From the IMG/VR virus record IMGVR_UViG_3300042517_000534, positions 1 to 39,229 of that record: 39,229 nucleotides of DNA; one strand, given 5' to 3'. The stretch is from a virus. The translations under genes and the position numbers were made by a program. The notes beneath the pieces are model-generated. The model did not search any database, was not told the origin of the DNA, and was given only the letters and a program-made list of their open reading frames with translations. This document shows positions 1,211-12,291 of this stretch, piece after piece (position 1 is the first letter of the stretch; the number at the start of each line of letters is the position of its first letter).

Positions 1211-1881
1211 TCCGCGAGGCCGTCATTGTCGTGCTGCTGGGCGCGCTTGCGTGGCTGACGGCCGAGACTGTGCTGGCTGTGCGCGACGCGCGGCGGGTCA
1301 TTAACGAAGTGCCGGATGTGGTCGACGCGGCGCTGGCCCGCGAGGCTGAGGCCACCCGCGCTGAGCTATCAGACCAGAGCGCACTTTGGCGGCGGCTGGT
1401 CGCGTCTGAGAGTGGCCGGGCGCGTGCGGCGGCTGTGGCCGAGAGCGCGGCTTGGCGGGTGGCGACTGAGACGCAGTTGGCCGGCGCAAGGCTTGACCTG
1501 CGCGAGGCCATTGACCGACAGGGCGCGGCGGTGCTGGCGACGGTGCGCCCGGCGACAGAAGCGGCCACGGCGGCCCTGGACGAGTACCGGATGGTGCCGC
1601 GCATCATCGGCGCACGGCTGGACCCGTGGACGGATTGCCGGGGCAACGGTGCGTGCTGGCAGGCGCAGACAACGGCGCTGCTGGGGGCGTCGCGGGTGAC
1701 CGCGGGCGAGGCGTCGAAGGCGGCGCGGTCTATCAATGCGGCGGTGCCGTCGATTGTGGCGTCGGTGGATACGACCACGGCAAATGTTGCCCGGCTGACG
1801 AAGCCGGATTCCATGCGGATGCGGATACTTAAACTCGTGGCTCCGATTGCCGGAGGGGCCATATTCGGAGCGATTCGATGA
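1189..1881 (+). CDS. Membrane-anchored coiled-coil protein in lysis cassette
   Basis: The ATG at 1189 has GGAG six bases upstream and gives 230 residues; a GTG at 1177 in the same frame would add four residues but has a poorer site. The protein has an N-terminal membrane segment (about residues 8-28, VIVVLLGALAWLTAETVL), a long Ala/Arg/Glu helical region (about 35-130), a CRGNGACW segment with two cysteines near 150, and a short hydrophobic C-terminus (LVAPIAGGAIFGAI). Position between endolysin and holin and the anchor-plus-coil layout suggest a role in lysis or the envelope, possibly spanin-like, but there is no lipobox and no homology I can name. Confidence 0.72.
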   Translation: MGRTAEVVREAVIVVLLGALAWLTAETVLAVRDARRVINEVPDVVDAALAREAEATRAELSDQSALWRRLVASESGRARAAAVAESAAWRVATETQLAGARLDLREAIDRQGAAVLATVRPATEAATAALDEYRMVPRIIGARLDPWTDCRGNGACWQAQTTALLGASRVTAGEASKAARSINAAVPSIVASVDTTTANVARLTKPDSMRMRILKLVAPIAGGAIFGAIR

Positions 1882-2207
1882 ACTGGTTAATGAAAATTGG
1901 ATCATGGTTTGGCGGTCGTCAAATGCGCGACGCCGTAGCACTGGCCGAGCAGGCGCTGCCGATTGTGCGACTCGTGGCGACGCTGACGCCGACGCGGGCC
2001 GACGACGAGATACTACGAGCCGCGCAGGAGTTGGGCGTGCCGATTGCGAAGCAATGGTTGGCGCTGGAGCCGTCCGAGCGCGGCCGGGCTCTTCTGCAGA
2101 TTGCATCCAGTGCGCTGAAAGCGCGCGTACCCAGCGCGGCTGGTCGTGTCATCGACCTAGCCGTTCAACTCGCCGTCGTGCGGATGCGGGACGATGCGGG
2201 ACGATAG
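1878..2207 (+). CDS. Small protein of the lysis cassette, unknown function
   Basis: The gene encodes 109 residues and starts in an ATGA overlap with the previous stop. The N-terminus (MNWLMKIGSWFGGR) looks like an amphipathic helix; the rest is helical and Ala/Arg rich with two evenly hydrophobic helices (QALPIVRLVATL, VIDLAVQLAVV). No domain is recognised. It lies directly upstream of and overlapping the holin frame, so it is probably co-translated with it. It may be membrane associated; that is inferred from amphipathicity only. Confidence 0.7.
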   Translation: MNWLMKIGSWFGGRQMRDAVALAEQALPIVRLVATLTPTRADDEILRAAQELGVPIAKQWLALEPSERGRALLQIASSALKARVPSAAGRVIDLAVQLAVVRMRDDAGR

Positions 2208-2613
2208 GACGATGATGGAAGCCCCGGCGTCGGTGGCGGCGGTGAAAACGTTTTGGCCGGTGGCTGTGGCCATGGCGTACTGGGGCGCGCTGCCGCCCAC
2301 GGTGCATACGCTCGTGCTACTGGCCGTCGTCGACTACGCCAGCGGCACGATGGTGGCGTGCAGCGGCGGGCAGCTGAATAGTGCCGCCTCATTCCGGGGC
2401 GTCGCAAAAAAGACCATGATGTTTCTGCTCACGGGCGCGTGCGGCGCGATCCAGCCGCACTTTGGTATCGACGCCGACCTGGCCGCTGGGGTGGCCGGGT
2501 TTTTTTGCGCCACGGAATTAATAAGCATCACCGAGAACGCGGGCAAGTTGGGCGTGCCATTGCCGGGCGTGCTGGTGCGGTTCCTGGCACGACTCCGCGA
2601 GCAGATGGACTGA
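2194..2613 (+). CDS. Holin (phage holin family 4 / HOL type)
   Basis: The longest frame gives 139 residues. Hydrophobic segments lie near residues 22-48, 67-85 and 94-112. The motifs VDYASGT and SITENAGKLGVPLPG match the toxin-secretion/phage-lysis holin family (Phage_holin_4), in which D-Y-x-S-G and E-x-x-S-I-x-E-N are conserved. It would make membrane lesions that release the endolysin. Alternative starts exist: ATG 2194, and the tandem ATG 2212/2215, the last of which has AGGA five bases upstream and is probably the main start. A longer form with a charged MRDDRT extension could act as an antiholin, as in dual-start holins, but this is speculative. Confidence 0.85.
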   Translation: MRDDRTMMEAPASVAAVKTFWPVAVAMAYWGALPPTVHTLVLLAVVDYASGTMVACSGGQLNSAASFRGVAKKTMMFLLTGACGAIQPHFGIDADLAAGVAGFFCATELISITENAGKLGVPLPGVLVRFLARLREQMD

Positions 2614-2654
2614 GGTACACTAGAGGCGTACATCCTCCTAGTCTCCTGTTTCCA

Positions 2655-2683
2655 GCCCGCCGTCTCCTCCGGCGGGCTTTTTT
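2655..2683 (+). terminator. Intrinsic terminator of the late/lysis operon
   Basis: GCCCGCC (2655-2661) pairs perfectly with GGCGGGC (2671-2677) around a 9-nt loop and is followed by six T residues (2678-2683). This is a textbook rho-independent terminator and lies 42 bp after the holin stop, marking the end of the structural-lysis transcription unit. Confidence 0.93.
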
Positions 2684-2705
2684 CGTGCTCCATTAAAATT
2701 GCATA

Positions 2706-2726
2706 ATGTAGTCGATTTGACTACAT
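2706..2726. promoter_or_regulatory. Perfect 8-bp dyad, probable operator of the RHH gene
   Basis: ATGTAGTC (2706-2713) and GACTACAT (2719-2726) form a perfect inverted repeat with a 5-bp spacer in an A+T-rich gap 20 bp before the ribbon-helix-helix gene. A CATAAT hexamer (2702-2707) and TTGACT (2717-2722) overlap it, so a protein bound here would cover a promoter. RHH proteins of the Arc/CopG type bind paired short half-sites and often autorepress, so self-regulation is the simplest reading. Confidence 0.65.
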
Positions 2727-2734
2727 CTCTGTGA

Positions 2735-2740
2735 TAGTCT
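2735..2740 (+). promoter_or_regulatory. Candidate leaderless -10 element (TAGTCT) for RHH gene
   Basis: TAGTCT ends six bases before ATG 2747, and no Shine-Dalgarno sequence is present. An overlapping TGTGATAGT resembles an extended -10. Either would place transcription start at or very near the ATG. See the finding on leaderless-type starts. Confidence 0.35.
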
Positions 2741-2746
2741 TTGGTC

Positions 2747-2887
2747 ATGGCAGCACAACAACCAACCAGCGTTCGGCTCACTCCGGCGCAAACCAAGCGC
2801 CTGCAAGCGCTGGCGGTCCGCCGAGGCGTGTCGGTCGGCGTATTGATCCGCCTAGCCGTGCACGACTATCTGGAGTCGCACGCATGA
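2747..2887 (+). CDS. Small ribbon-helix-helix (CopG/Arc-type) DNA-binding protein
   Basis: This 46-residue frame reads as a ribbon-helix-helix domain: a beta strand (PTSVRLTP, residues 6-13), helix one (AQTKRLQALAVRRG) and helix two after the turn at GVSVGVLIRLAVHDYLES. The alternation of V8, R10 and L11 in the strand and the G-V-S turn are typical of CopG-like transcriptional regulators. No ribosome binding site is visible. It leads a three-gene operon, overlapping the next gene in ATGA, and has a perfect dyad 20 bp upstream, which suggests that it represses its own operon. It is the only transcription-factor-like protein I recognise in the genome. Confidence 0.75.
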   Translation: MAAQQPTSVRLTPAQTKRLQALAVRRGVSVGVLIRLAVHDYLESHA

Positions 2888-3069
2888 TCCGCGCCGCGTT
2901 TGCCGCGGTCGGCGCTATTGCCATTTGGGCTGGCGTCGTCATGGCCGATGTGGGGTGGGTGTCGACCCACTTGCCGTTGGCGGATCGTGTCGCCATCGGC
3001 GTGGGCGCGGTCGGCGGGGCGCTGGTTGGGTTAGAGCTGCTGTTAGAAGCGTGGAGGGAAAGGTCATGA
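2884..3069 (+). CDS. Small two-span membrane protein
   Basis: The ATG in the ATGA overlap with the RHH gene gives 61 residues. Two hydrophobic segments are clear: about residues 4-21 (AAFAAVGAIAIWAGVVMA) and about 32-52 (RVAIGVGAVGGALVGLELLL), separated by a short loop. A longer in-frame reading from upstream would run across the RHH gene and its promoter in the wrong frame, so I reject it. Function is unknown; it could be a superinfection-exclusion or holin-like membrane protein, inferred from size and topology only. Confidence 0.65.
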   Translation: MIRAAFAAVGAIAIWAGVVMADVGWVSTHLPLADRVAIGVGAVGGALVGLELLLEAWRERS

Positions 3070-3284
3070 ATTGGGAGAAAGAGCTTGAACGGCGCGCCGA
3101 TTTGGCGCAAGAGGCCGAGCGGGCCGAGGCGCAAGCCGAGCGCGAAGACCGCATCACGGCAGCGACGCTGCGGCGGGTGTTTCTGGAGATCGAGCGCAAG
3201 CGCCACGCGCGGCAGCTTGCGGCGCTGTGGTTTGTGTTGGGCCTGAGCTTGGCGGCGAATGCGCTGCTGTGGTGGGGGCGATAG
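3066..3284 (+). CDS. Small coiled-coil, tail-anchored membrane protein
   Basis: ATG 3066 lies in an ATGA overlap and has a strong GGAGGGAAAGG site upstream, giving 72 residues. The first 50 residues are a highly charged helix (repeated E/R/A, for example RAEAQAERED), followed by a C-terminal hydrophobic segment (AALWFVLGLSLAANALLWW) and GR. The topology is a cytoplasmic coil with a C-terminal anchor. It probably works with the two-span protein encoded just upstream; no homology is recognised. Confidence 0.68.
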   Translation: MNWEKELERRADLAQEAERAEAQAEREDRITAATLRRVFLEIERKRHARQLAALWFVLGLSLAANALLWWGR

Positions 3285-3289
3285 GGTTG

Positions 3290-3463
3290 GGCTCGGCGCG
3301 GCTCGGCAGGGCGAGGCGTGGCGAGGCAAGGCAAGGTTTGGGCAGTACGGGCTCCGGCCCGTTGCGGGCATACGGTGCCTGGAACGGACCGGAGACGGTC
3401 CATGGCAAGGCGAGGCAGGTCATGGCTTGGCAAGGCCGGGCTCGGCAAGGCGGGGCAGGGCAG
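3290..3463. repeat. Two phased arrays of GGCNN pentamers
   Basis: From 3290 the sequence runs in perfect 5-bp phase as GGCTC GGCGC GGCTC GGCAG and on for 10 units to about 3339, and again from 3404 to 3463 for 12 units (GGCAA GGCGA GGCAG, then on). Nearly every unit begins GGC; only the last two bases vary. The 64 bp between the arrays are not phased. The several open frames across this stretch reflect the repeat and lack proper starts. It lies in the leader between the RHH operon and the recombination gene. Confidence 0.85.
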
Positions 3464-3471
3464 GGGCAGTA

Positions 3472-3491
3472 ACCAAGCGCTTGCGCTTGGT
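3472..3491. repeat. Perfect 9-bp inverted repeat
   Basis: ACCAAGCGC (3472-3480) and GCGCTTGGT (3483-3491) are exact reverse complements separated by TT, giving a 20-bp near-continuous palindrome directly after the second pentamer array. It has no T-tract. A dimeric regulator or a structured RNA could use it; there is no direct evidence for either. Confidence 0.7.
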
Positions 3492-3631
3492 GGTCGGCTA
3501 CACCAAAGGAGCGATCCGGAGGCGCGGCGTGGAAACCGTGGACCCGGCCGACCACCTGGCGCAAGCCAGCCGTCCGTTGGACGGTATATCAAGTAAGGAG
3601 AAATTGGTAAAGAAAGCGAACGGTTAACAGC

Positions 3632-7818: not shown

Positions 7819-8266
7819 TTTGGACGCGCTGGAAGCGGCGCTGGCGAGGGCTACGCCGGGAGAGTGGACCGTAGAGATGGACGGGCCGGACGATGACGAC
7901 TCGCCATGTGACGTCGTCATCCCGGAGATCAACCGCATTCTGCACAGCACCGAGTGGGCAGACCCGGAAGACTTCGAGCAGGACGTCGCCAACGCCGAGG
8001 CCATCGTTGCCGCCCACAACGCCCTCCCCGCCCTCATCGCCGAGTTGCGGCAACTCCGGGCGCGGATAACGCCGGAGGTGATCGGGGAAAAGCACCGGGA
8101 CGGGAACTGGTGGCTGGTGTGGGGTGGCGACATGGATAAGTGGGTGATTGCGCACCATGACGAATTGATGTGGCAGTGGTATCGCGATTGCGGGCTGAGC
8201 GTCAACCCCACCCACGCCCTGCCGATGCCGCCCGCGCCGGAGCCACCGGCGCCGAGGGGGGAGTAG
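7799..8266 (+). CDS. Ead/Ea22-like accessory protein
   Basis: The 155-residue product begins with a short helix and the motif ATPGEWTVE (about 18-26), followed by an acidic segment and then ANAEAIVAAHNALPALIAELRQL (about 64-86). The A-T-P-G-x-W and N-A-x-x-I-x-x-x-x-N-x-x-P-x-L-I-x-E-L pattern recurs in phage accessory proteins of the Ead/Ea22 group. The C-terminal part (NWWLVWGGDMDKWVIAHHDE) is Trp rich, and the tail is Pro rich. GGGAG lies five bases before the ATG. Role unknown. Confidence 0.68.
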   Translation: MEQQKVDLDALEAALARATPGEWTVEMDGPDDDDSPCDVVIPEINRILHSTEWADPEDFEQDVANAEAIVAAHNALPALIAELRQLRARITPEVIGEKHRDGNWWLVWGGDMDKWVIAHHDELMWQWYRDCGLSVNPTHALPMPPAPEPPAPRGE

Positions 8267-8880
8267 TGAGCGCGAAATCAACGATCTGCCTTAAATGCGG
8301 CGGCGAGCGCGACATGACCTTGGCCCATGCGTGGTGTCGGCCATGCTGGCGCCTTGAGAACCGAGAGCGCCGGCGCATCAAGCGCGGCACGCCGGAATCT
8401 GCCTACCGGCCCGAGCGGTGCGACCCGGCGCCGCGCAAATACCCGATGGGCCAGTGCTCGCACTGCGGGGTCGCGGTCGTCCAGGACGGCAAGTGCGCGC
8501 CGTGCCTAGCTGCCTACCGCCGAGAGTGGGAAGCGAAGCGCCGCGCCAAGAATAAGGCGGCGGCAGGGCCGAAGCTGTGCCGTACCACCGGGTGCGGCCA
8601 GCGGACGAGGACGCCGAGTAGCAAACTGTGCGCGGTGTGCTACGGGCACGCGCAGATTGCCAAGGTGACGAAGGCCACCAAGGCGCGATTGACCAAGGCG
8701 GCGGCGCATAAGCAGATGGCGCGGCCCGCGCCGCCCGCTGGTCGTCGGTGGCCGGAGGTGGCGGTTGTCGAGGCGCGGGACATCGTCATCGGACCGGCGG
8801 CCATCGAGGTCGTCCAGCCGGTGGACATCCGCGGGCATAAGGTGACGCGGGTTCCGGCGGCGGGGGAGTGGGGGCGGTGA
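8266..8880 (+). CDS. Cysteine-rich protein with three zinc-ribbon-like units
   Basis: GTG 8266 overlaps the previous TAG; the product is 204 residues. Cysteine pairs occur as C8/C11 with C24/C27, C64/C67 with C77/C80, and C105/C110 with C122/C125, three four-cysteine sets each fitting a zinc ribbon or knuckle. Basic segments lie between them (RERRRIKRG, EWEAKRRAKNKAA), followed by a Lys/Thr-rich stretch (KVTKATKARLTKAAAHKQ) and a strand-rich C-terminus. The layout suggests nucleic-acid binding, perhaps a transcription or translation modifier. No named family is recognised. It overlaps the methyltransferase start in GTGA. Confidence 0.72.
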   Translation: MSAKSTICLKCGGERDMTLAHAWCRPCWRLENRERRRIKRGTPESAYRPERCDPAPRKYPMGQCSHCGVAVVQDGKCAPCLAAYRREWEAKRRAKNKAAAGPKLCRTTGCGQRTRTPSSKLCAVCYGHAQIAKVTKATKARLTKAAAHKQMARPAPPAGRRWPEVAVVEARDIVIGPAAIEVVQPVDIRGHKVTRVPAAGEWGR

Positions 8881-9944
8881 ACCTTTACAACGAAATCGAC
8901 CCCTACGCCGCCCAGTGGCTCCGCAACCTGATCAATGCCGGGGAAATACCGCCCGGCGACGTGAACGAAACCCCAATCGAGGAACTGAATGCAGACGACC
9001 TTGTTCGATACACCCAATGCCACTTCTTTGCCGGAATCGGAGGCTGGCCGCTTGCCCTACGTCTCGCCGGATGGCCCGACGATGAGCCAGTCTGGACCGG
9101 CAGTTGCCCCTGCCAGCCATTCTCCGTCGCCGGGAAGGGCCTCGGCGAAGACGACCCGCGCCACCTCTGGCCTGCGTTTCGGAAACTCATCGCCAAGTGC
9201 CGCCCTAACGTCATCTTTGGTGAGCAGGTTGCGGGAGCGGCTGGATTGCGATGGCTCTCTGGAGTACAAGCTGACGTGGAGGAAGATTCGTACCGATTGG
9301 GGTTTGCGGAGCTTTGCGCTGCGGGCGTCGGCGCGCCCCATATCCGGCAACGATTGTTCTGGGTGGCCGACAGCCCGGAGCGAGGACGCGGAAAGCAGTG
9401 GGGCGCAAATCAGTCGAGGAGTGGCGGATACTCTAACGGCGGTCGCGAGGCTGGCGGGCTGGGTTTCCACCACGGCAACGGACGGGACGCGCGGGAGCCT
9501 GCCGCCGCGTTCGCACGATACGGGAGTCCCGCTGGATCAGATGGCGGCGCTGGCTGGCTGGGCAACGCCCAACGTGCCAAACGGCGGCCGATCAATCAGC
9601 CACGCAAAAAGGAAGGGCGCGACGGCCTATCACAACGGGAAGAAAGTCCAGATTGGACTGGAGGCGCAGGCACGCATGGCGAACTTGAACGATCAGGCGG
9701 CGCTACTGGTTTCTGGTCCGACTTCGACATCCTCAACTGCCTCGACGGAAAAGCGCGGCGCACTCAATCCGGACTTCAGCCGCTGGCTCATGGGGTATCC
9801 GGTCGAGTGGCTATTCGCCGCGCCGGTCAAGAGCACTGGTACTCGCGGACGGGAACGCTCCGCGGATTCGGTAACGCCATTGTGCCCCAAGTGGCGACGG
9901 AGTTTATTCGGGCTTACATGGAGGTGACCAAGTGCCCACGATAG
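8877..9944 (+). CDS. DNA (cytosine-5) methyltransferase
   Basis: GTG 8877 overlaps the previous stop and follows a GGGGGAG stretch, giving 355 residues. The C5-methyltransferase motifs appear in order: motif I FFAGIGGW (50-57), motif IV SCPCQPFS with catalytic C79, a motif VI equivalent FGEQVA (114-119), motif VIII HIRQRLFWVA (155-164), and motif X GFGNAIVPQVA (331-340). The target-recognition region (about 165-300) is low in complexity and Gly/Arg rich, which is also seen in related phage enzymes. The enzyme probably methylates phage DNA to evade host restriction. Most of the gene is also coding in another frame (8989-9927). Confidence 0.9.
   Translation: MNLYNEIDPYAAQWLRNLINAGEIPPGDVNETPIEELNADDLVRYTQCHFFAGIGGWPLALRLAGWPDDEPVWTGSCPCQPFSVAGKGLGEDDPRHLWPAFRKLIAKCRPNVIFGEQVAGAAGLRWLSGVQADVEEDSYRLGFAELCAAGVGAPHIRQRLFWVADSPERGRGKQWGANQSRSGGYSNGGREAGGLGFHHGNGRDAREPAAAFARYGSPAGSDGGAGWLGNAQRAKRRPINQPRKKEGRDGLSQREESPDWTGGAGTHGELERSGGATGFWSDFDILNCLDGKARRTQSGLQPLAHGVSGRVAIRRAGQEHWYSRTGTLRGFGNAIVPQVATEFIRAYMEVTKCPR
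8989..9927 (+). CDS. Gene nested in the C5 methyltransferase (+1 frame)
   Basis: A 312-codon frame lies wholly inside the methyltransferase gene. ATG 8989 has its own GAGGA five bases upstream. The product is not random in look: DGSLEYKLTW (88-97), SGWPTARSEDAES (124-136), three spaced G-W-x-T/S units (125, 157, 190), HDTGVPLDQMAALAGWATPN, and LNPDFSRWLMGYPVEW (259-274). I know this pattern (repeated GW-x-TP-x-x-x-D and LNP-x-x-SRWLMG-P-x-EW) from phage proteins encoded at the same kind of locus. The DNA of the methyltransferase motif WVADS reads GWPTA here. Function unknown; perhaps target recognition or modulation of the methyltransferase. Confidence 0.72.
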   Translation: MQTTLFDTPNATSLPESEAGRLPYVSPDGPTMSQSGPAVAPASHSPSPGRASAKTTRATSGLRFGNSSPSAALTSSLVSRLRERLDCDGSLEYKLTWRKIRTDWGLRSFALRASARPISGNDCSGWPTARSEDAESSGAQISRGVADTLTAVARLAGWVSTTATDGTRGSLPPRSHDTGVPLDQMAALAGWATPNVPNGGRSISHAKRKGATAYHNGKKVQIGLEAQARMANLNDQAALLVSGPTSTSSTASTEKRGALNPDFSRWLMGYPVEWLFAAPVKSTGTRGRERSADSVTPLCPKWRRSLFGLTWR

Positions 9945-10038: not shown

Positions 10039-12291
10039 ATGGAGATGGAGAAGATGGAGAAACACAAGGATTTAGGCGAGGATTACGACAAGTATTTGAG
10101 CAGCAAGCAGGTTGTTGCTCCAGTGGCTGGATTTCATGTCGAGGACATTAACCCAGCCATGCACCTACATCAGCCGGTTATAACAAAATGGGCCATTAGG
10201 AAAGGTAGGAGCGCAATCTTTGCAGGGACCGGCATGGGCAAGACCTTTATGGAACTGGAGTGGGCTCGACACGTTTCAGTGAAGGCTGGCAATGTCCTGA
10301 TCCTTGCTCCTCTGGTAGTCGGTGCTCAGACCAAAAAAGAGGCTGACAAGTTCGGGATCGCTGGCGTAGAGCACGTCCATTCGCCGACTGATGCGCCGAT
10401 TCAGGTGACAAACTACGAGAAGTTGCACCGGTTTAACCCGAAAGATTATGCGGGGATCGTGCTGGACGAGTCAAGCATACTCAAGGGTTTTGACGGAAAG
10501 TTCAGAAAGGCAGTGACGGAGTTTTCATCCGTCATTCCCTATCGGCTTTGCGCGTCGGCCACGCCCGCGCCAAACGACTACATGGAACTGGGGAACCATG
10601 CGGAGTACCTAGGCGTCATGACTTGCGCGGAAATGCTTGCGATGTTCTTTACGCACGACGGAGCCGACACATCAAAATGGAGACTGAAGAAGCACGCAGA
10701 GCCTGTTTTCTGGAAGTGGGTATGCTCGTGGGCTGTGGCGATCAGGAAGCCATCGGACCTTGGATTTGACGATGGGCCGTACTCTCTGCCACCGCTTAGC
10801 ATTAACCAAGTCACAGTGCAAAGTGGCGTCGTTCAGGAAGGGCTACTCTTCCAGGTAGAGGCTGATTCTCTGCAAGAGCGCCAGCAGGCAAGAAAGCTGA
10901 CCATAGACCAGCGGGTTGCGGAGTGCGCTAAATACGCGAATGGCAATTCGGATCAGTGGGTCATATGGTGCGGGCGAAACGAAGAAAGCTCCAAGCTGGC
11001 CGCGTCCATTGACGGAGCCATTGAGGTCACTGGATCGCAACCAGAGGAACAAAAGGAAGTCAATCTTCTGAAGTTCGTCAATGGCCATGCTCGGGTTTTG
11101 GTCACGAAGCCGGAGATAGCTGGATTCGGCCTAAATCTTCAGTTTTGCCATAAGGTTGCGTTCGTCGGGCTATCTGATTCTTTCGAGCAGTACTATCAGG
11201 CCGTCCGCAGGTGTTGGCGGTTTGGTCAGAAGAAAGCAGTAGACGTATACGTCATAACGGCAGACATAGAAGGCGCTGTCGTAAGGAATATCCAACGAAA
11301 GGAAAATGACTCAGAACGAATGATGGAGGGAATGGTAATGCACATGGCGGAGGAGATGAAGAAAGAGGTATTTTCGAGCGTCATCCAGAAGACTGAATAC
11401 GCAGAAGCCGAGCAACGCGGGTCATCGTGGACGGCATTGATGGGGGATTGCGTCTCCCATGTTTCAAAAATGCCCGATAACTACATCGGCTACTCTATTT
11501 TCTCTCCGCCGTTTGCATCTTTGTACACCTACAGCAACAGCGACCGCGACATGGGCAACTGCAAAAACTATGAACAGTTCGAGCAGCATTTCAAGTTTCT
11601 CATTCCGCAACTATTCCGCGTTTTGATGCCCGGAAGGGTGCTTTCTTTTCACTGCATGAATCTGCCGTTTTCTAAGGAACGAGACGGCTTCATTGGGATT
11701 CGCGACTTTCGGGGGCAGATGATTCAGTGGTTTCAGGATTGCGGGTTTATCTTTCACTCAGAGGTGTGCATATGGAAAGACCCAGTGACCGCCATGCAGC
11801 GAACTAAGGCGATTGGCCTACTGTACAAACAACTACGCAAAGATTCGGCGATGAGTAGGCAGGGAATACCAGACTATCTGGTTACCATGCGGAAACCGGG
11901 CGTCAACGCTCAGCCGGTGACCAAGACTCACGAGTCGTTCCCTGTTGATTTATGGCAGCGCTACGCTTCTCCGGTGTGGATGGACATTGAGCAGTCGAAG
12001 ACGCTGAATCGAGACGGCGCGAAAGAGGAGAACGACGAGCGGCACATCTGCCCGCTGCAGCTCGACGTCATTGAGCGAGGCGTAAGGCTTTGGTCGAATC
12101 CAGGCGACGTGGTGCTTTCGCCGTTCATGGGCATCGGAAGCGAGGGATACGTTTCAATTAAAGAAGGGAGGAGGTTTGTCGGCGTGGAGCTAAAGCCGAG
12201 CTACTTCGAGTTGGCTTGCCGGAACCTGAAACAGGCCGAGCATGATGGGAAAGCCCAGATTGACATGTTCGCGGAGGCCGCCAATGACTAA
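10039..12291 (+). CDS. SNF2-like helicase fused to a beta-class DNA methyltransferase
   Basis: The 750-residue protein has an N-terminal superfamily 2 ATPase: GTGMGKT (63-69), VLDES (141-145), SATPAPND (173-180) and QAVRRCWRFGQ (387-397, motif VI). The C-terminal part is an amino-methyltransferase: FSPPF (488-492, motif IV), then HICPLQ (669-674) and SPFMGIGSEG (694-703, motif I). Motif IV before I is the beta order of N6-adenine/N4-cytosine enzymes; SPPF is frequent in m4C enzymes. No nuclease domain is visible. GAGGAG lies six bases before the ATG. It is clearly A+T richer than its neighbours (one 60-base line at 11281 has 40% G+C; one at 12661 has 68%), suggesting recent acquisition. A DarB-like anti-restriction role is one possibility. 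Confidence 0.88.
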   Translation: MEMEKMEKHKDLGEDYDKYLSSKQVVAPVAGFHVEDINPAMHLHQPVITKWAIRKGRSAIFAGTGMGKTFMELEWARHVSVKAGNVLILAPLVVGAQTKKEADKFGIAGVEHVHSPTDAPIQVTNYEKLHRFNPKDYAGIVLDESSILKGFDGKFRKAVTEFSSVIPYRLCASATPAPNDYMELGNHAEYLGVMTCAEMLAMFFTHDGADTSKWRLKKHAEPVFWKWVCSWAVAIRKPSDLGFDDGPYSLPPLSINQVTVQSGVVQEGLLFQVEADSLQERQQARKLTIDQRVAECAKYANGNSDQWVIWCGRNEESSKLAASIDGAIEVTGSQPEEQKEVNLLKFVNGHARVLVTKPEIAGFGLNLQFCHKVAFVGLSDSFEQYYQAVRRCWRFGQKKAVDVYVITADIEGAVVRNIQRKENDSERMMEGMVMHMAEEMKKEVFSSVIQKTEYAEAEQRGSSWTALMGDCVSHVSKMPDNYIGYSIFSPPFASLYTYSNSDRDMGNCKNYEQFEQHFKFLIPQLFRVLMPGRVLSFHCMNLPFSKERDGFIGIRDFRGQMIQWFQDCGFIFHSEVCIWKDPVTAMQRTKAIGLLYKQLRKDSAMSRQGIPDYLVTMRKPGVNAQPVTKTHESFPVDLWQRYASPVWMDIEQSKTLNRDGAKEENDERHICPLQLDVIERGVRLWSNPGDVVLSPFMGIGSEGYVSIKEGRRFVGVELKPSYFELACRNLKQAEHDGKAQIDMFAEAAND

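Follow-up and report, generated by a model that had tools for sequence, protein, structure and literature searches.

A gene nested in the +1 frame of phage C5-cytosine methyltransferase genes, probably encoding the second subunit of a split enzyme

The C5-cytosine DNA methyltransferase gene of this phage (alpha) encloses a second gene (beta) that is read in the +1 frame of the same strand. Beta is a real gene under selection and is always co-encoded with alpha, and we consider it likely (probability about 0.84) that the two genes together specify a single, split C5-cytosine DNA methyltransferase, an active heterodimer in which beta supplies motif IX and probably DNA recognition. To our knowledge, cellular and phage genomes rarely contain same-strand overlaps of about 300 codons in which both frames show selection.

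Geometry and distribution of the overlapping genes

The window, a 39,229-nt stretch of viral DNA, is a fragment of a tailed-phage genome with terminase, portal, capsid and tape-measure genes. The features of the overlap, all on the plus strand, are as follows.

8868–9944, plus strand: alpha, putative catalytic subunit of a C5-cytosine DNA methyltransferase (358 aa; GTG at 8868, TAG at 9942–9944)
8889–8918, plus strand: motif II-like NEIDPYAAQW of alpha, ahead of motif I; conserved in an 80-sequence alignment
8979–8983, plus strand: GAGGA, Shine-Dalgarno-like, 5 nt before the beta ATG at 8989
8989–9927, plus strand: beta, nested +1-frame gene (312 aa, ATG start), proposed second subunit
9024–9047, plus strand: motif I (FFAGIGGW) of alpha; conserved in the alignment, aligns weakly to M.HhaI motif I
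9108–9125, plus strand: motif IV (PCQPFS, with the catalytic Cys) of alpha; P81, C82 and Q83 invariant in 80 sequences, aligned with M.HhaI
9193–9333, plus strand: beta 69–115, predicted helix and beta-hairpin (AF2: H69–88, E93–101, E107–115), start of the strongly constrained core
9345–9374, plus strand: motif VIII (RQRLFWVADS) of alpha; the same DNA forms the start of the first GWPTA unit of beta
9361–9570, plus strand: tandem G-W-x-T-P/S units of beta (starting at 9361, 9457 and 9556); the alpha model shows a low-confidence linker over the same stretch
9763–9810, plus strand: motif-IX-like block of beta, LNPDFSRWLMGYPVEW (beta 259–274), with ungapped resemblance to M.HhaI and Dcm
9858–9896, plus strand: motif X of alpha, LRGFGNAIVPQVA; G335, N336 and I338 invariant

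As originally predicted, the 312-codon frame at 8989–9927 falls wholly within the alpha frame, GAGGA stands five bases upstream of its ATG, and three G-W-x-T/S units occur at beta 125–128 (GWPT), 157–160 (GWVS) and 190–193 (GWAT). One stretch of DNA (9361–9375) indeed has two readings, GWPTA in beta and WVADS in alpha. Alpha could start at GTG 8877 instead of GTG 8868, which leaves the overlap unaffected; the stop codon of the upstream frame, a 207-aa Cys-rich ORF without a PHROG match (8257–8880), overlaps this possible start (GTGA). Directly 3′ of the pair lies a gene for a 750-aa protein (10039–12291) in which a SNF2/ResIII-like helicase part is fused to an N6/N4 DNA methylase domain at the C-terminus (PF01555, PF00271).

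The overlap extends far beyond this phage. When viral loci were fetched with alpha alone, all 80 carried an overlapping beta homologue; beta was in frame +1 in every alpha/beta pair of phage or viral loci (149 of 149, these 80 included) and in 80 of 80 bacterial loci, although these counts include redundant contigs and the loci are thus not fully independent. Beta without alpha was not seen in about 390 pairs or loci, and the sole alpha match without its own beta was the 5′ fragment of an alpha split by an in-frame TAG (L070). A beta-frame ATG precedes the beta core in 79 of 80 homologues, with a Shine-Dalgarno-like tetramer just upstream of it in 64 of the 80; a minority of subfamily A loci, the group with the alpha motif order of the window, lack a start codon at the exact position that aligns with the beta start. 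The odd cases (L016, L070, L056 and L270) have a stop in one frame or are partial or fused contigs. In L070 (1992–3035) the TAG interrupts alpha and beta is intact; in L016 (1956–3014) an in-frame stop interrupts beta and alpha is intact. These broken copies could be sequencing errors or losses of function. Three loci (L026, L065 and L123) hold two alpha/beta pairs each.

In five loci of the first set, alpha showed the canonical order of motifs, and a search with one locus (L061) brought together 161 loci of this second subfamily (B). All 161 encode alpha and a homologous beta, in frame +1 except on contig L270, where the deviant reading came from a joined ORF. That ORF (1647–3497) contains the alpha start, the beta frame and the alpha C-terminus, and may reflect misassembly or a genuine fusion. 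In 145 subfamily B loci (for example L383, L376 and L299), the start codon of beta lies exactly 4 nt from that of alpha, typically as ATGAATGAGTTGG (ATGAATG) behind one shared Shine-Dalgarno-like site, so that almost the whole subfamily B gene is double-coding. The two subfamilies are homologous in both their beta cores (hhalign probability 99.4%, E 6e-22) and their alpha cores (hhalign E 6e-21), scores that are not fully independent since the two proteins share DNA. The simplest reading of these sequence similarities is that the overlap is older than the split between the subfamilies.

Selection on both reading frames

Stop codons are strongly avoided in the beta frame. In 5000 synonymous resamplings of the window alpha with the phage's own codon usage, the +1 frame between the beta start and the alpha end contained a mean of 5.7 stops and a minimum of 1, where the observed sequence has 1, the beta terminator. 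Across 80 non-redundant alpha genes, with expectations from within-gene synonymous shuffling, 290 stops would be expected in the +1 frame of the overlap and 16 are present; avoidance is absent from the +2 frame (888 observed, 800 expected), and the 36 codons preceding the beta start contain 148 +1 stops in 2880 codons. Subfamily B has 17 +1 stops against 615 expected. Single-chain Dcm-type genes, used as a control, have 9–24 stops in the equivalent frame, and together with the shuffling and resampling this rules out an open frame due to chance.

Third-base identity at fourfold-degenerate codons of alpha (expected 0.26) traces the extent of beta. It is 0.31 before beta, 0.35–0.38 over beta 1–68, 0.67 over beta 69–115, 0.52 over the linker and highest, 0.84, over the motif-IX-like block, and it returns to 0.26 past the conserved end of beta. 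Constraint therefore begins and ends with beta, and its strongly constrained part is approximately residues 69–305. Within the motif-IX-like block, amino acid conservation is higher in beta than in alpha (0.71 versus 0.64; 0.68 versus 0.54 in subfamily B). An artefact of composition is likewise ruled out, because the +2 frame is not depleted of stops and the boundaries of constraint fall near the beta start and stop.

The two tests proposed with the original prediction were thus run: +1 stops in homologues number 16 against 290 expected, and the excess of third-position conservation exists and is confined to the overlap. Together with the presence of beta in every relative examined, these results uphold the claim of a long, real overlapping gene pair. 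The claim that both frames are constrained needs a narrower form, as it holds for the beta core (about 69–305) but only weakly for the first ~60 residues, which have no predicted structure.

Division of methyltransferase motifs between the two proteins

Alpha has the hallmarks of a C5-cytosine methyltransferase in PCQPFS, RQR and GNAIVP, and C82, R160, R162, G335 and N336 are invariant in 80 sequences. It matches phrog_363 (E 8.3e-79), yet its match to Pfam PF00145 (E 3.2e-14) covers only positions 66–160 of the 324-position profile (motifs IV–VIII), whereas canonical enzymes match the same model over 1–320. In subfamily A the order of motifs is rearranged to II-III-I-IV, with YNEIDPYAAQW...GDV before FFAGIGGW (window 8889–9047), and alpha 1–46 aligns with motif II of subfamily B alphas (hhalign E 0.0014); the other alpha subfamilies, B included, keep the canonical order. 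The motif VI position reads GEQV in subfamily A (E119 invariant, Gln for Asn) and ENS or ENV in other subfamilies.

The AF2 model of alpha has a confident catalytic domain resembling the folds of M.HhaI, M.HaeIII and DNMT (Foldseek E about 1e-7), followed by a low-confidence or disordered linker over about 170–285 (pLDDT mostly 31–53 over 180–280) and then motif X. Neither a target-recognition domain (TRD) nor motif IX was visible in alpha by Pfam, AF2 or a motif IX profile, which gave no consistent match. The original prediction had taken a low-complexity TRD in alpha to be the price of double coding. The low-complexity region is there, but it is not simply a degraded TRD, since alpha shows none in the disordered stretch and the Pfam match ends at 160 of 324. 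Target recognition has probably moved from alpha to beta.

Beta matches phrog_1008 (E 1.6e-19), but no family in Pfam, NCBIfam or PADLOC and no solved structure in sequence and structure searches of the PDB. Modelled alone by AF2 it is of low confidence (pLDDT 61), and residues 1–68 have no predicted structure; its weakly constrained, low-complexity N-terminal ~60 residues overlie motifs I and IV of alpha. GWxTP units usually number 2–4 per beta, about 36 aa apart, and the DNA of the repeat reads L/V-A/G-D/N-A in alpha, a sequence compatible with a flexible linker. The burden of double coding appears to be shared: beta is loose at its N-terminus where alpha is structured, and alpha is mostly linker where beta carries its repeats, so that only beta 69–115 and the motif-IX-like block are demanding in both frames.

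The block LNPDFSRWLMGYPVEW aligns ungapped with RKLHPRECARVMGYPDSY of M.HhaI and RRLTPRECARLMGFE of Dcm. Since beta gave no significant hhalign match to E. coli Dcm alone, a profile was built from nine canonical motifs IX, and for 74 of 85 beta proteins the best-scoring window fell on the LNP..WLMG block. The score of the window beta alone is reached by 6.7% of unrelated ORFs, and given this score and the non-significant hhalign result, the assignment of the block as a candidate motif IX is well motivated but not proven.

We infer the following division of labor. Alpha would be the catalytic subunit, contributing the AdoMet pocket and catalytic Cys (motifs I–VIII) together with motif X; a disordered linker would take the place of a TRD and motif IX. 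Translation of beta would begin at an internal ATG of its own, in the +1 frame of the alpha mRNA, and beta would supply motif IX, while its GWxTP units and helix-hairpin core probably form the DNA-recognition half; the GWxTP units may contact DNA directly. Together the two chains would form an active heterodimer, whose most likely role is to methylate phage DNA, either to evade host restriction or in phage regulation. The suggestion that the nested product is a methyltransferase partner thus gains support and can be sharpened: as in M.EcoHK31I, the product would be a subunit that contributes motif IX and probably also recognises the target.

Alternatively, beta could be a real overlapping gene whose product works apart from the enzyme, as a regulator or DNA-binding protein that happened to arise on the methyltransferase gene. 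Its failure to match any solved structure or any Pfam, NCBIfam or PADLOC family would fit such an origin, but we regard it as unlikely: every beta in the roughly 390 pairs or loci is accompanied by alpha, the segment missing from alpha is precisely the TRD and motif IX, and beta seems to provide motif IX at least, and M.EcoHK31I provides a biochemical precedent for a shared enzyme. Programmed frameshifting from alpha might also yield one polypeptide with beta as its C-terminal portion, in place of internal initiation. A core that lies downstream in +1 is usual for frameshift fusions, and the minority of subfamily A loci in which the exact position aligned with the beta start holds no start codon could be read the same way; against this, a beta-frame ATG precedes the core in 79 of 80 loci, the subfamily B beta ATG comes 4 nt after the alpha start, and alpha motif X stays in frame 0 through the overlap, which implies that both full products are needed. 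Frameshifting is therefore very improbable.

Barely conceivable is a further account, in which beta is never made as a protein and the +1 frame stays open as a side effect of alpha composition or of some RNA or DNA element in the gene. The GC-rich window and the loosely constrained, low-complexity first 60 residues of beta lean toward it, but +1 stop avoidance survives within-gene synonymous shuffling while +2 shows none, and canonical Dcm genes have 9–24 stops in the same frame. Constraint is moreover bounded by beta, amino acid identity in the motif-IX-like block is higher in beta than in alpha, and start codons are 4 nt apart in 145 subfamily B loci. A split methyltransferase of alpha and beta remains our preferred reading. 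A broader version, which we offer only tentatively and consider rather doubtful, is that catalytic and recognition halves are obligatorily double-coded throughout an ancient phage-wide family in which gain and loss of GWxTP units shift specificity while the other frame serves as a flexible linker. If so, overprinting would be a platform for evolving methylation specificity.

Significance and relation to known two-chain methyltransferases

The overlap is kept in every relative examined, among phages and prophages of many bacterial groups, yet public annotation mostly lists a single one of the two proteins and usually leaves beta out. A tblastn search with beta gave matches in 144 phage records and, among the matches listed, the annotation beneath them was nearly always that of the methyltransferase only. 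Both frames were annotated in one of eight phage records inspected, that of Escherichia phage K1ind2, where ORF28 and ORF29 are recorded as overlapping methyltransferase genes but are assigned no joint function. The window proteins match PHROGs 363 (alpha) and 1008 / 31772 (beta), all labelled "DNA methyltransferase", and these labels do not reveal that 363 and 1008 / 31772 are read from a single locus in two frames. Should beta be an obligate subunit, such phage C5 methyltransferases should be inactive when expressed from alpha alone, and many "DNA cytosine methyltransferase" annotations would describe half an enzyme. The locus is also a clean natural system for studying the co-evolution of two proteins, proposed to bind each other, on the same nucleotides.

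Heterodimeric C5 methyltransferases with a nested second subunit are a kind already known from M.EcoHK31I (YGGCCR). Lee et al. in 1995 reportedly found its small subunit to be encoded inside the large one in another frame. The M.EcoHK31I beta is about 176 aa long, whereas beta here has 312 aa and tandem GWxTP units. M.EcoHK31I, which has been termed naturally split (PMC3439449), consists of a larger polypeptide with motifs I–VIII and X and a smaller one with motif IX (PMC3404938), which is also the motif layout proposed for our pair. By analogy, the same mechanism, with an internal beta start and a beta that completes the enzyme, is most likely used here too. The predicted TRD of M.EcoHK31I, however, was assigned to the larger subunit (PMC3404938), while alpha here seems to have none, and a recognition role for beta may therefore be wrong. 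Furthermore, M.EcoHK31I belongs to a restriction-modification system and alpha/beta is a phage locus; no restriction endonuclease was recognised beside the pair in a non-exhaustive search of the flanks.

M.AquI (CYCGRG) is likewise a C5 methyltransferase of two polypeptides (PMC3404938), but its split is linear (motifs I–VIII and IX–X), whereas here motif X is in alpha and the genes overlap almost completely. Our literature search, with subscription papers outside its coverage, found no general report of this overlap in phages. As far as the literature searched shows, what distinguishes these loci from the known two-chain enzymes is how general the overlap is among phages and prophages, along with the dual start 4 nt apart, the GWxTP repeats and a beta that belongs to no curated family.
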